From the NCBI GenBank assembly GCA_016936295.1, contig JAFGYD010000104.1, forward strand, positions 1 to 37,458: a DNA stretch of 37,458 nt. Reading direction: 5' to 3'. The notes below the pieces were generated by a model. That model saw only the letters and a program-made list of their open reading frames with translations. It had not been told where the DNA came from and did no database searches. The stretch comes from Spirochaetales bacterium. Lineage in GTDB: Bacteria; Spirochaetota; Spirochaetia; DSM-2461. Made by a program: the position numbers and the translations under genes. Positions 2,021 through 8,757 of the stretch are shown here, in pieces (position 1 is the stretch's first letter; every line of letters begins with the position of its first letter).

Positions 2021-2584
2021 ATGATATTATTTATAATTTCAGCGGTTGTTTTTTTTGCAATTTTTTCATTTATAGCTGAAAGAAAAGCCCCTGAAGAGTA
2101 TAGTAAGAAGATAAACACACTAGATGAACTGGCTTGCCAAAACTATGAAAATAGAACCATTATGCAATGGGGATATTGGGGATTTGGCATATTGATAGTA
2201 GTAGGTATATTAATTAACATAAACAGTTCTATTAAGGAATTTCACTATAGTATTCCTCTTCTCTTCTATTCTGGTTTTATGATTTTGGCGGGACTATTCT
2301 CGGCAAAACCGTTTGAACATTTGGTATTCTATTCTATAAGTGAAAGCAAAAAACATACTATATTTATGCAATTGGCTGAATTTAGTATAGGTCTGCTAAT
2401 AATGATGAAACTAATTATAGAAGTTGGCACTTTTAATAGGGTTTTTAATGTTATAGTGCTTATAGTGGTGTTATATTCGTCTATAATGGGTGGGAGAAGT
2501 TCAAATAAAAGAGGTCTTTACGAAAGAATGAAATATTTTGCCCATTTTTTTTGGTTAATTTATGCAAATTCAAGTTTAATGTAG
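2021..2584 (+). CDS. small multi-pass membrane protein, uncharacterised
   Basis: Several hydrophobic segments. Track start 1988 is TTG; ATG at 2021 (MILFIISAVVFF) is a plausible start. Confidence 0.6.
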   Translation: MILFIISAVVFFAIFSFIAERKAPEEYSKKINTLDELACQNYENRTIMQWGYWGFGILIVVGILININSSIKEFHYSIPLLFYSGFMILAGLFSAKPFEHLVFYSISESKKHTIFMQLAEFSIGLLIMMKLIIEVGTFNRVFNVIVLIVVLYSSIMGGRSSNKRGLYERMKYFAHFFWLIYANSSLM

Positions 2585-2595
2585 AAAGGGAAATT

Positions 2596-3078
2596 ATGAG
2601 AAAGTACTTATTATTATTTTTAATTGTGGTGTCATTTAATTTGTATAGTGAAAATAAGGTTTCATTTAAAACTATGAGTAATAGAATTGAAGCAACAATA
2701 ACATTAGATAATGAAGAATATATAACTTTAAATGAAGATTTTTTCTATTTAATGGTAGAATCGGATAAATATACTTTTAAGTTTTCAGGTTATCCAAAAG
2801 GTGAAATCAATATTAATGGTGAAACTGTTTATTTTGGTAAAGTTATTCTGGCTGGAGAGCTTGAGCTTAAAGAAAATATTCTCCCAGATGATTATTTAAT
2901 AAATGTGATATTGGGATATCAATCATGCACAAAAGATGGGATGTGTAATATTCCTGTTGAAGTTTCTGAAAATATTTTAGTGAAAAACAACCAAAAAATT
3001 TTATATATCCCAATAGGTATTGGACTTTTAATTATTTTAATAGTGATAGTATTACTTGTTAAAAGAAGAAAAAATTGA
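2596..3078 (+). CDS. DsbD N-terminal (alpha) domain-like protein with signal peptide and C-terminal TM anchor
   Basis: MRKYLLLFLIVVSFNLYS signal; LGYQSCTKDGMCNIPVE resembles the DsbD-alpha YQxCxxxGxCxPP region; C-terminal IPIGIGLLIILIVIVLLVKRRKN. The track start (2551) overlaps the upstream gene; ATG 2596 has an upstream AAAGGGA. Confidence 0.6.
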   Translation: MRKYLLLFLIVVSFNLYSENKVSFKTMSNRIEATITLDNEEYITLNEDFFYLMVESDKYTFKFSGYPKGEININGETVYFGKVILAGELELKENILPDDYLINVILGYQSCTKDGMCNIPVEVSENILVKNNQKILYIPIGIGLLIILIVIVLLVKRRKN

Positions 3079-4070
3079 AAGAGGAAAATCGAATTACTGT
3101 AGATTTAACTGCAGTCATTTACAGGATTAAAGATTCAGAACCTCAAATAATGACAATCCCATCTCCTTTATCTCTTCCTAGTGGTGCATTTGATCCAGAA
3201 AACCACAGAACAATGGAGTTAGGTTTAAGAAGTTGGGTTCAAGAGCAAACTGGGCAGAAATTAGACTATGTAGAACAAATTTATACCTATGGGAATTGGC
3301 ATAGAAATAAGAGTAATCGACAAGGTAGCAGGAATGTTACTGTTGGTTATTATGCATTAATGCCCTATGTAAAAACTGATATGTCTCTACCAGGAAGATG
3401 GATGAATTTATATAATTTCTTTCCTTGGGAGGATTTTAGAAGTGGAATCCCTGGAATAGTAACAGATATTATTGAACCTAATTTAATTAAGTGGAGTAAA
3501 GATTGTGATCCTTTAGAAAGAAAGGATAGGGAAGAGAGAATCAGATTAAATTTTGGTGATTTTAGAAACTGGGATATGAGTAAGGTCCTTTTTAGATACG
3601 AGATATTATATGAGGCTGGTCTTGTTTCAGAAGCGCATAGGGATTGGGATGACTGGGCAAAAGATGCTAAATATAGGTTACCTATAAGTTCATCTTTTAT
3701 TGACGATATGAATTATAGAAATTTATCAAGAGATCTTGGACTACCCATGGCTGGTGATCATAGAAGAATTTTAGCATCTATGACTGCAAGAATTAGGGGG
3801 AAAATACCTTATAAACCTATAGCCTTTAAATTACTACCTAAGGAATTTACTCTTTTAGCTGTTCAGCATGTATATGAAGGAATAACAGGAATGCAACTTC
3901 ATAAACAGAATTTTAGAAGATATATTAAGCAGGGAAATTTTGTTATAGAAACAGGAGATGAGGATGCTACTGGTCCAGGTAGACCAGCAGCTGTATACTC
4001 ATTTAGGAGTGATGTTGAAGCAGAAAGAGTAAATGTAGGATTAAATTTACCCTTTAAGAGAATTGAGTAG
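3075..4070 (+). CDS. nadQ: NadQ/NrtR-like Nudix-related transcriptional regulator (COG4111-type)
   Basis: N-terminal Nudix-like fold with degenerate Nudix box (GAFDPENHRTMELGLRSWVQEQTGQ); C-terminal wHTH (FKLLPKEFTLLAVQHVYEGITGMQLHKQNFRRYI...GRPAAVYSF) typical of NrtR/NadQ proteins; located next to nadABC. TTG start overlaps the upstream stop by 4 nt. Confidence 0.7.
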   Translation: MKEENRITVDLTAVIYRIKDSEPQIMTIPSPLSLPSGAFDPENHRTMELGLRSWVQEQTGQKLDYVEQIYTYGNWHRNKSNRQGSRNVTVGYYALMPYVKTDMSLPGRWMNLYNFFPWEDFRSGIPGIVTDIIEPNLIKWSKDCDPLERKDREERIRLNFGDFRNWDMSKVLFRYEILYEAGLVSEAHRDWDDWAKDAKYRLPISSSFIDDMNYRNLSRDLGLPMAGDHRRILASMTARIRGKIPYKPIAFKLLPKEFTLLAVQHVYEGITGMQLHKQNFRRYIKQGNFVIETGDEDATGPGRPAAVYSFRSDVEAERVNVGLNLPFKRIE

Positions 4071-4721
4071 ATCATTAGCCCTAATATTTTTGGGGTATAG
4101 TTTTAAGGCTTCGTTGCAATATTTTATTGCTTCATTTTTATCTTTTTTTGTATAAGCTATTGAAAGAGCAAGATAGGTGTCAAAGAGTGTTTCCATGTCA
4201 TCTGCATTAGTAATAATGTTTTTTAGTGACTCTATTCCTTTATTAAAATCTCCGCCAAAGATGGCCGGGGCATTAATCAGACCATTAGCAATTATAAATT
4301 CAGCTCTATAATTACTTTTATCCATTTCAAGGGATTTTATTGCGTAGTTATTAATATCTTTAGAGTTTGCTATAATATAACTAACACCTTTTTGTAGCAT
4401 TAAATAAGTTCCAGCTTCTGACAATATTCTTAATTGATTTGATGAAGGATCTCTTTTTATCTCCATTTCTGAAATTTCAATAACCTCTTCCAAGACTTTT
4501 ATAGATTCTTTTTTGTTATTTATCAAATAGAGAGCCTTCCCTTGATAGAGAAGAATTTCACACTGCTCTTCAACATCTTTTCCTTGAATATTTGTTAGTT
4601 TTTCCACAAATTCTGTTGAGTCAATACTATTATTTAGCCAACTTTCTTTTAATGAATTTAAATTATTACTGTAAATTGTTAATGGAAATATAAGTATCAA
4701 TATTGTAAAAATGTACCGCAT
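4047..4721 (-). CDS. TPR-repeat protein with signal peptide
   Basis: MRYIFTILILIFPLTIYS signal; TPR-like repeats (AIKYCNEALKLYPKNIRANDLL). Confidence 0.7.
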   Translation of the reverse strand: MRYIFTILILIFPLTIYSNNLNSLKESWLNNSIDSTEFVEKLTNIQGKDVEEQCEILLYQGKALYLINNKKESIKVLEEVIEISEMEIKRDPSSNQLRILSEAGTYLMLQKGVSYIIANSKDINNYAIKSLEMDKSNYRAEFIIANGLINAPAIFGGDFNKGIESLKNIITNADDMETLFDTYLALSIAYTKKDKNEAIKYCNEALKLYPKNIRANDLLNSLKG

Positions 4722-4767: not shown

Positions 4768-4796
4768 TTGACTTTTTTTTTTATGAGGAGGATTAT
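4768..4796 (+). promoter_or_regulatory. putative nadA promoter (-35 TTGACT, 17 nt spacer, -10 GATTAT)
   Basis: TTGACT at 4768-4773; GATTAT at 4791-4796; upstream of a good SD (AAGGAG) and ATG 4827. Confidence 0.5.
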
Positions 4797-4813
4797 GCTC
4801 ATTATGAGTATAA
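4793..4813. promoter_or_regulatory. inverted repeat, candidate operator for NAD biosynthesis regulator
   Basis: TTATGCTCAT-T-ATGAGTATAA: 10-bp arms, 9/10 complementary, 1-bp centre, overlapping the -10/TSS region of nadA. Confidence 0.6.
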
Positions 4814-4826
4814 ATAAGGAGTTTTT

Positions 4827-5828
4827 ATGATTTTTAATCCGGAATTTACAAAAGAGGTTCAAGAGGGAACAGAACACCTCTACTCACTTGTTAAAGACGT
4901 GATACCTAGAATGGAGTGGGAAGTAAAGGCTCCGTATATATATAGAATTAATCAGATTAAGAAAGAGAAAAACGTTGTAATTTTGGCACACAACTATATG
5001 ACATCGGATATATTTCATTGTATTGCTGATATACAGGGAGACTCATTAGGTTTAGCAAGAGAAGCTGCAAAAACCGATGCCGAAACAATTTTAGTTTGTG
5101 GTGTTTATTTTATGGCCGAGACTACAAAGGTTTTAAATCCAAATAAAAGGGTTTTAATTTCTGATCCTACCGCAGGGTGTTCATTGGCCGATTCAATAAG
5201 TGGTAATGATATTAAAAAACTAAGGGAAGAGTACCCTGGAGTACCTGTTGTTACTTATGTTAATACAACAGCAGAGACAAAAGCAGAAGTTGATATCTGT
5301 TGTACATCTGGTAATGCTCTTAAGATTATAGAAAGCATAGATAGTGATAGAATCCTTTTTGTTCCAGACCGATTTTTATGTAGAAATATGCAGACACAGA
5401 CAGATAAAAAACTTATTGAGTGGTCTAAAGGAAGTTGTGAAGTTCATGAATTATTCACAGTAGAGAGTATTAATGAGTTTAGAGCTGCCCATGACAATTT
5501 AGTTGTTATTGCTCACCCGGAGTGTCCACGGGAAATTGTGGAGGCATCCGATTTTTCTGGTTCAACCGCAGATATGATTAATTTTGTTGAAGAAAATAGA
5601 CCTAAAAAAATATTAATGGTTACTGAATGCTCCATGAGTGATAACTTGACAGGGTTATACCCAGATGTTGAATTTATTAGGCCATGTAACCTATGTCCGC
5701 ATATGAAGAAAATCACAGTTGAAAATATTTTAGAAACCTTAGAAACAATGTCCCCAGAAGTTATAGTTTCATCAGATGTTATTGAAGGTGCTAAAAGATC
5801 TGTTGAGAGAATGTTAGAGGTTAAATAA
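4827..5828 (+). CDS. nadA: quinolinate synthase NadA
   Basis: ILAHNYMTSDIFHCIADIQGDSLGLAREAA, CGVYFMAETTKVLNPNKRVLISDPTAGCSLADS, MVTECSMSDNL; Fe-S ligand cysteines present. Confidence 0.95.
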   Translation: MIFNPEFTKEVQEGTEHLYSLVKDVIPRMEWEVKAPYIYRINQIKKEKNVVILAHNYMTSDIFHCIADIQGDSLGLAREAAKTDAETILVCGVYFMAETTKVLNPNKRVLISDPTAGCSLADSISGNDIKKLREEYPGVPVVTYVNTTAETKAEVDICCTSGNALKIIESIDSDRILFVPDRFLCRNMQTQTDKKLIEWSKGSCEVHELFTVESINEFRAAHDNLVVIAHPECPREIVEASDFSGSTADMINFVEENRPKKILMVTECSMSDNLTGLYPDVEFIRPCNLCPHMKKITVENILETLETMSPEVIVSSDVIEGAKRSVERMLEVK

Positions 5829-7381
5829 TGGATAGTGATCCTGTTTTCGATATTATTGTAGTTGGTTCCGGTGCTGCAGGTTTAACTGCAGCCATAGAGT
5901 CTGGTAGTAAGCGGGTTCTAATTGTTACAAAAACTGGATCTTTTACTAGTGGGAGTTCTCCATTAGCACAGGGTGGTATTGCCGCATCTACTGGTTCCGA
6001 TGATTCTCCGGATTTACACTACGATGATACGATTAAAGCAGGAGTCTTTTCGGGAATATCGGATCAAATATCCTTTTTAACACAGAACGGTGAATCGGCT
6101 ATTGAAAATTTAATTAAACTAAATATGCAGTTTGATAAAAATGAACATGGTGATTTAGATAGAAATAAAGAGGCTGCCCACTCTCGAAGAAGGGTTTTAA
6201 AAGCTGGTGGCGATGCAACAGGAAGAGTTCTGGTTGAAACACTTTATAGCGAAGCAGTTAAAAGAAGTAATATTCACTGGAAGTCTAATTTTTTTGTTTA
6301 CGATCTAGTTCTTGATGGGGATACCGTACAAGGTGTTGTTGGCTACTCTAAAGATAGTGGATGGCAGTTTATTAGATCCCAAAGGGTTATTTTGGCAACA
6401 GGTGGCCTTGGTCAGCTATTTGGACATACTACGAACCCTAAGGAAGCTACAGGAGATTCTATGGCTATTGCTTTAAGATCTGGTTTAAGACTTAAAGAGA
6501 TAGAGATGGTTCAGTTCCATCCAACTGCACTAAATGTTAAAAATGGAGACTCTTTAATGCTACTCACCGAAGCATTAAGAGGTGATGGTGCAATTCTTGT
6601 AAAAAAAGATGGAACACCTTTTATGGGGAAGTATTCTCCTTTAAAGGAATTAGCACCTAGAGATGTTGTTTCCAGAGGTATTTGGAGTGAGATAATTAAT
6701 GGCTTTGATGTTTTTCTCGATTTAACCAAAATTGATAATATTGGAGATAAATTTCCTACAGTTACATCCTTTTGTTTAAAAGTTGGATTAAATCCAAATA
6801 TTGATCTTATACCCGTTACTCCAGCTGTTCACTATGTAATGGGTGGAGTGGATATAAATTCCATTCTTCCTAAAGGTCTGGGTGTTGCGGGTGAAGCTGC
6901 ATACACTGGAGTTCATGGGGCAAATAGATTAGCAAGTAATTCTCTTCTTGAATGCTTAGTTTATGGAAAATCCGAAGCATTGAGGGTTTTGAAAGAAAAT
7001 CATGAACTTATCGATTTTATACCTGAATATTTAAGTTTATCAAATATTAAGTCTGGCGAAATTATAAAAAAATATAGATCAGATTTACAAAAAATTATGT
7101 ATACATATTGTGGAATTATACGTAATGAAACGCTTTTAGAAAAAGGCAAAGTAGAGTTAAAGGATTTAAAAACTCGTCTTTATAAAGAGAAGGATGATAG
7201 TGAATCCTTGGAATACAGTAGAGTTGTATGTTGGCTTGAATTATTAAATATGATGGATCTTGGACTAAGTATGATTGACTCTGCACTGTACAGAAAAGAG
7301 AGTAGAGGAGCACATTATAGGGATGATTATCCTGAAAAATCTATTAAATGGGACAGAATTATTGTTAAGGAGTTAGGGTGA
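5828..7381 (+). CDS. nadB: L-aspartate oxidase NadB
   Basis: FAD motif VGSGAAGLTAAIESG; HSRRRVLKAGGDATGR; GANRLASNSLLECLVYG. Confidence 0.95.
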   Translation: MDSDPVFDIIVVGSGAAGLTAAIESGSKRVLIVTKTGSFTSGSSPLAQGGIAASTGSDDSPDLHYDDTIKAGVFSGISDQISFLTQNGESAIENLIKLNMQFDKNEHGDLDRNKEAAHSRRRVLKAGGDATGRVLVETLYSEAVKRSNIHWKSNFFVYDLVLDGDTVQGVVGYSKDSGWQFIRSQRVILATGGLGQLFGHTTNPKEATGDSMAIALRSGLRLKEIEMVQFHPTALNVKNGDSLMLLTEALRGDGAILVKKDGTPFMGKYSPLKELAPRDVVSRGIWSEIINGFDVFLDLTKIDNIGDKFPTVTSFCLKVGLNPNIDLIPVTPAVHYVMGGVDINSILPKGLGVAGEAAYTGVHGANRLASNSLLECLVYGKSEALRVLKENHELIDFIPEYLSLSNIKSGEIIKKYRSDLQKIMYTYCGIIRNETLLEKGKVELKDLKTRLYKEKDDSESLEYSRVVCWLELLNMMDLGLSMIDSALYRKESRGAHYRDDYPEKSIKWDRIIVKELG

Positions 7382-8217
7382 GTTTACGTGAAATACAATA
7401 TAGAGAGATTATAGAAAGAGCTTTACTCGAAGATTTTAGTAGGGGAGGGGATTTAACAACTGAGTCTTTAATTCCTGAAAATGCAAGGGGTACGACAGTA
7501 TTAAGAGCCCGGGAAAATGGCGTTATTGCAGGCTTGGAGGCATCGTTATATGCATTTAAAGTATTAGATAAATCTGTTGAATTTATCTTTAATAAAAAAG
7601 ATGGAGATGAAGTATTTCCAGGTGATATTATTGTTAAAATATCTGGTAATGTACGTGCTATGCTATCGGCTGAAAGAACTTGTTTAAATCTATTAGGTCG
7701 ATTATGTGGAATAGCAACATTAACAAATAAACTTGTAAAAGCAGTTGATGGAACAAAAGCCAAGATTGCAGATACACGAAAAACGACACCAGGTTTAAGG
7801 GCATTAGAAAAATATGCTGTTAAAACAGGCGGAGGAATAAATCATAGATTTGGTTTAGATGATGCGGTTATGATAAAAGATAACCATATTGCTTTTAGTA
7901 ATTCTCTAACCGAAGCTGTAGAAAAAGTTAGGAATTTTGTAGGTCATACTGTAAAAATTGAGGTAGAAGTTGACAGCCTTGTACAGCTGGAAGAGCTTCT
8001 AAAATGCCCTGTAGATATTGTTTTATTAGATAATATGTCTCCTGAAATATTAAAAAAAGCAGTTGAAATGGTTAATGGGAAAATGATAACCGAGGCTTCG
8101 GGTAATATTTCCCTTGAGACTATTAAAGAAGTAGCTCTAACAGGTGTAGATATAATTTCTAGTGGAGCTTTAACTCATTCCATTAAAAATTTTGATATTG
8201 GGTTAGACAGAGAATAA
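7378..8217 (+). CDS. nadC: nicotinate-nucleotide pyrophosphorylase (carboxylating) NadC
   Basis: LLEDFSRGGDLTTESL, KIADTRKTTPGLRALEKYAVKTGGGINHRFGLDDAVMIKDNH, ASGNISLETI. GTG start overlapping the nadB stop. Confidence 0.95.
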   Translation: MSLREIQYREIIERALLEDFSRGGDLTTESLIPENARGTTVLRARENGVIAGLEASLYAFKVLDKSVEFIFNKKDGDEVFPGDIIVKISGNVRAMLSAERTCLNLLGRLCGIATLTNKLVKAVDGTKAKIADTRKTTPGLRALEKYAVKTGGGINHRFGLDDAVMIKDNHIAFSNSLTEAVEKVRNFVGHTVKIEVEVDSLVQLEELLKCPVDIVLLDNMSPEILKKAVEMVNGKMITEASGNISLETIKEVALTGVDIISSGALTHSIKNFDIGLDRE

Positions 8218-8232
8218 TTATTTGAAAATAAA

Positions 8233-8757
8233 ATGCTTGCCAAATCTTATTTAGCATATTTATTATTAGTTATGAAAGCAACAAGATTTGGAATAGTTTT
8301 ATCTATTTTTGGAATTTGTTTTTTTATATATCTCTCTTTTACTAGTTTTAGGGAATTAGGCTTAAAAACAACTTCGGTTGTATTTATTTTTATTTCCATA
8401 ATTCTTCTGGTTTTCTCTCTTTTTAAATATTATAAAGCAAATTTATCTAATTGGATAAAAAGAGAGTTAAGACTTCGTAGAATGATTGAGAATCTTACAA
8501 ATTCAATTATAGAAAGTGATTTTAGTCTGTGTGGAAAAAACCAGATAGACATTAATGAATTAGAGTTAAGTCGAGCGGAATATGAGTTACTGGAAGCTCT
8601 TTGTATATATAAAGAATCAAATCTTGATTTAGGACTTAGGTTAAATAAATCACCTAATACTATAAAAGTTCAATTAGCCAGTATTATGACAAAAACAGGA
8701 ACAGAGACCAGACATCAATTGACTGATCTCTGTAGAAGTTATTTTGTTTCGTTCTGA
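8233..8757 (+). CDS. membrane-anchored LuxR/GerE-type HTH protein
   Basis: Two N-terminal hydrophobic segments; C-terminal LSRAEYELLEAL...LGLRLNKSPNTIKVQLASIMTKTGTETRHQL matches the LuxR HTH pattern. Confidence 0.7.
   Translation: MLAKSYLAYLLLVMKATRFGIVLSIFGICFFIYLSFTSFRELGLKTTSVVFIFISIILLVFSLFKYYKANLSNWIKRELRLRRMIENLTNSIIESDFSLCGKNQIDINELELSRAEYELLEALCIYKESNLDLGLRLNKSPNTIKVQLASIMTKTGTETRHQLTDLCRSYFVSF

Follow-up and report, generated by a model that had tools for sequence, protein, structure and literature searches.

What is the function of the inverted repeat just upstream of nadA in this 37,458-nt stretch of DNA (the window), and which protein would recognize it? The repeat, TTATGCTCATTATGAGTATAA, was located at 4793-4813, with arms at 4793-4802 and 4804-4813 around a single central base at 4803. 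Nine of the ten pairs were complementary, exactly as described in an earlier sequence-only reading of a near-perfect 10-bp inverted repeat. Four 9/10 palindromes of this size were found in the window, and 3.2 ± 1.8 were expected from dinucleotide shuffles of the window. This meant that the bare palindrome was no evidence of function, and that the evidence had to come from its position and motif. A functionless palindrome in AT-rich DNA would agree with such a count, since about three similar ones arise per window by chance. With regard to position, a promoter scan of the region gave a single candidate on the forward strand, which consisted of the -35 hexamer TTGACT (4768-4773) and the -10 hexamer GATTAT (4791-4796), separated by 17 nt. 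These predicted hexamers were consensus matches only and no commoner than in shuffles; TTGAC was found at the same place in the alignment with two other NadQ spirochaetes (G001 and G002). The repeat overlapped the predicted -10 and ended just 5' of the Shine-Dalgarno sequence AAGGAG (4816-4821) and the nadA ATG (4827), which agreed with the proposed overlap with the -10/start region. The predicted controlled operon consisted of nadA (quinolinate synthase, 4827-5828), nadB (L-aspartate oxidase, 5828-7381), and nadC (quinolinate phosphoribosyltransferase, 7378-8217), all on the forward strand like the promoter and Shine-Dalgarno elements. Directly 3' of nadC, a small ORF (8233-8757) was hydrophobic in its N-terminal half and showed, at the C-terminus, a weak match to a LuxR-type (GerE) helix-turn-helix (17.2 bits, Pfam cut-off 23.5).

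The motif was compared with the NadQ consensus of Proteobacteria, ttATRCTCannntGAGYATaa, which was obtained by comparative genomics in 2016 (PMC5343134). The unstranded site at 4793-4813 fitted this proteobacterial consensus at 18 of 18 specified positions. The sole unpaired pair of the repeat, arm position 5 (G vs T), corresponded to the R/Y degenerate position of the consensus. The exact core, ATRCTCANNNTGAGYAT, occurred once in the 2.85-Mb draft genome, at this very site. On base composition, the number expected per 2.85 Mb was approximately 0.08 for the exact core and 0.001 for the full consensus. The exact core match was likewise unique, and likewise at nadA, in each of four other genomes (G001, G002, G029, and G037). 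The full fit to a published 21-bp consensus and the uniqueness in the genome argued against a chance palindrome. Similar sites at other NAD genes were also looked for in the genome scan. The near-consensus sites elsewhere in the source genome, including all four with one mismatch, were within ORFs, and none was at a second NAD operon. A second match to the literal pattern, with two mismatches (C105:44315), was rejected as it was inside a long ORF, and a scan with three mismatches gave chiefly background. Since the source genome is an 81%-complete draft in 284 contigs, other members of the regulon could be missed.

The adjacent gene at 3075-4070 (forward strand) was identified as nadQ. Its 331-aa product is a predicted repressor with a Nudix-like domain and an NrtR-type winged helix (PF21906, 75 bits). 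It matched Agrobacterium tumefaciens NadQ (PDB 7q91) over both domains with a phmmer E value of 1.1e-63. The AlphaFold2 model, for which one alignment row with a stop codon was left out, had a mean pLDDT of 90 and a pTM of 0.90. In the Foldseek search with this model, the best 14 matches were A. tumefaciens NadQ crystal structures, and the native, ATP, NAD, and DNA complexes (7q91-7q94) gave E values of 1e-21 to 1e-27. NrtR and AraR resemble it in overall fold, and their C-terminal winged helix (PF21906, PF19368) is homologous. However, the protein was much closer to NadQ than to NrtR/AraR, both in sequence (E 1e-63 vs 1e-15) and in Foldseek (1e-27 vs 1e-13). With the NCBIfam NtrR equivalog model, the score was 68 bits (cut-off 400) and only the C-terminal part was covered, which did not place the protein in NrtR. 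NadR of enterobacteria and NiaR are other protein families, and no match to them was found in profile searches. By sequence and predicted fold, the protein is NadQ. Across 28 NadQs, most of which came from Spirochaetota and Proteobacteria, the winged-helix residues H276, K277, N279, F280, R281, and R282 were invariant. An operator identical across phyla fits these invariant residues of the DNA-binding region. The 3' end of nadQ was 756 nt upstream of nadA, so that nadQ was clustered with nadABC, and the same order was found in G001 and G002. A 175-aa ORF with no Pfam match (2551-3078) overlapped the start of nadQ by 4 nt. A relative of this ORF was also just 5' of nadQ in G001 and G002, and nadQ may be co-transcribed with it.

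The site was then followed across genomes together with the regulator. NadQ was rare in Spirochaetota and was found in 5 of 393 genomes of an even sample. These five, with G002 and G029, gave a set of seven NadQ spirochaetes, and one contig (L098) served as the eighth. Some other spirochaetes gave weak matches to nadQ (E ~1e-9 to 1e-16) that were confined to the C-terminal winged helix; these may be NrtR/AraR-type proteins and were not scored as NadQ. All seven NadQ genomes carried a site upstream of nadA with 16-18 of 18 positions. None of the 25 nadA regions of spirochaetes without a full-length NadQ match had one, the best score being at most 12/18. The difference in site scores was significant by a Mann-Whitney test (p = 1.5e-5), a statistic that ignores relatedness. 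The contig L098 carried nadQ-nadABC with sites of 17/18 and 15/18. Thus, the conservation expected of a genuine operator was seen at nadA in all eight NadQ spirochaetes. The same trend was observed in a wider set of 80 genome-contig loci with NadQ, most of them from Alphaproteobacteria. In 47 of these, nadA was in view, and all 47 had a site scoring 15/18 or better no more than 300 nt 5' of nadA. Conversely, 53 sites in 1.37 Mb of these loci scored 16/18 or better, and every one was in this 300-nt interval upstream of nadA. In G029, nadQ and nadA were on separate contigs (L036 and L007), and two operators were still found at nadA. This footprint, in which no examined genome with NadQ lacked a site at nadA, refuted the chance palindrome, whose probability we regard as negligible. 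In the NadQ tree, the spirochaete proteins formed one branch with support of 100/96. This fits a single origin of NadQ in the phylum; the unrooted sequence tree would be compatible both with transfer and with ancestral presence followed by losses.

The repeat could also act as an RNA hairpin in the nadA leader, as an attenuator or in translational control. It is just 5' of the Shine-Dalgarno sequence and would be foldable if fully transcribed. However, the start predicted from the -10 at 4791-4796 falls inside the repeat, which would leave most of the left arm untranscribed. In addition, G029 and L098 carried the first copy of the site in the gap that separates the apparent -35 from the -10, a position that is sensible only for a site acting as DNA. 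An RNA hairpin is therefore very improbable. Another regulator might bind the site, or the operator might also control the divergent TPR-repeat gene (4047-4721, reverse strand), as the sequence-only reading had considered. The intergenic region is common to both genes, and the order nadQ / TPR / nadA was kept in G001 and G002. However, the consensus and the co-occurrence indicated NadQ rather than another regulator. For the TPR gene, the site was on the nadA promoter, and the TPR start was 72 nt downstream of it. In L098, nadQ was directly 5' of nadA with no TPR gene between them, and the operators were still there. These results suggested that the TPR gene is probably uncontrolled by the operator, and we consider either form of this explanation unlikely, although a little less so than the hairpin.

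Based on the above results, we consider 4793-4813 to be the predicted operator of the NadQ encoded at 3075-4070, through which nadABC would be repressed by occlusion of the -10 and start, with a probability of about 0.94. The assignment of the repeat to the adjacent NadQ-like protein was thus upheld by the 18/18 consensus fit, the identity of the protein, and the co-occurrence across genomes. NadQ is listed as a repressor (PMC12421817). A NadQ dimer would recognize both halves of the operator through its C-terminal winged helices and, once bound, would cover the nadABC -10 element and transcription start. RNA polymerase would be kept off the promoter when the NAD/ATP status indicates no need for de novo NAD synthesis. 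NadQ was reportedly termed ATP-responsive by Minazzato et al. (2022, J Struct Biol 214:107917). For this organism, we infer that NadQ binds the site and represses nadABC, and we likewise infer the sign of its response to ATP/NAD.

The number of operators differed among the eight NadQ spirochaetes. Two tandem operators were found at nadA in six of them (L004, L005, L007, L008, L092, and L098), with a variable centre spacing of 22-32 nt, and a single operator was found in the window and in G423. In G029 and L098, the first operator took up the spacing from TTGACT to the apparent -10, and the second copy came after it. When the window was aligned to G001 and G002, one repeat unit was missing. The left flank of the window operator resembled that of the first operator of G001/G002, and its core was identical to the core of the second G001 operator, as would be left by a deletion between direct repeats. 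On this alignment, in which the polarity is unproven and an assembly effect in the 284-contig draft is possible, the single operator looks like the product of a repeat deletion. A broader reading is tentative, and we give it somewhat less than an even chance. It holds that, in a spirochaete NadQ regulon absent from the literature searched, the tandem pair recombined into a single hybrid operator of full consensus, which would alter how deeply or how cooperatively nadABC is repressed.

The repeat is almost certainly a NadQ binding site, and the system is a clear, essentially ordinary case of known NadQ regulation. It shares with the NadQ regulon of Alpha- and Betaproteobacteria (COG4111; PMC5343134) an orthologous regulator, the same 21-bp palindrome, the target nadABC, and nadQ-nadABC clustering. 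In contrast to that regulon, the host belongs to Spirochaetota, and a TPR gene convergent to nadQ lies between nadQ and nadA. The spirochaetes usually have two tandem operators and the window has one, although tandem pairs also occur in Bradyrhizobium. No paper was found in a literature search for spirochaete NadQ. What is new is modest: a NadQ regulon in Spirochaetota, where it is rare, with the usual tandem pair down to one copy in the window. A regulon that was predicted and structurally studied in Proteobacteria is thereby extended to Spirochaetota with its operator sequence unchanged, and the regulator and its target both gain a confident annotation. Close relatives that differ in having a single operator or a tandem pair offer a modest natural contrast in operator copy number.
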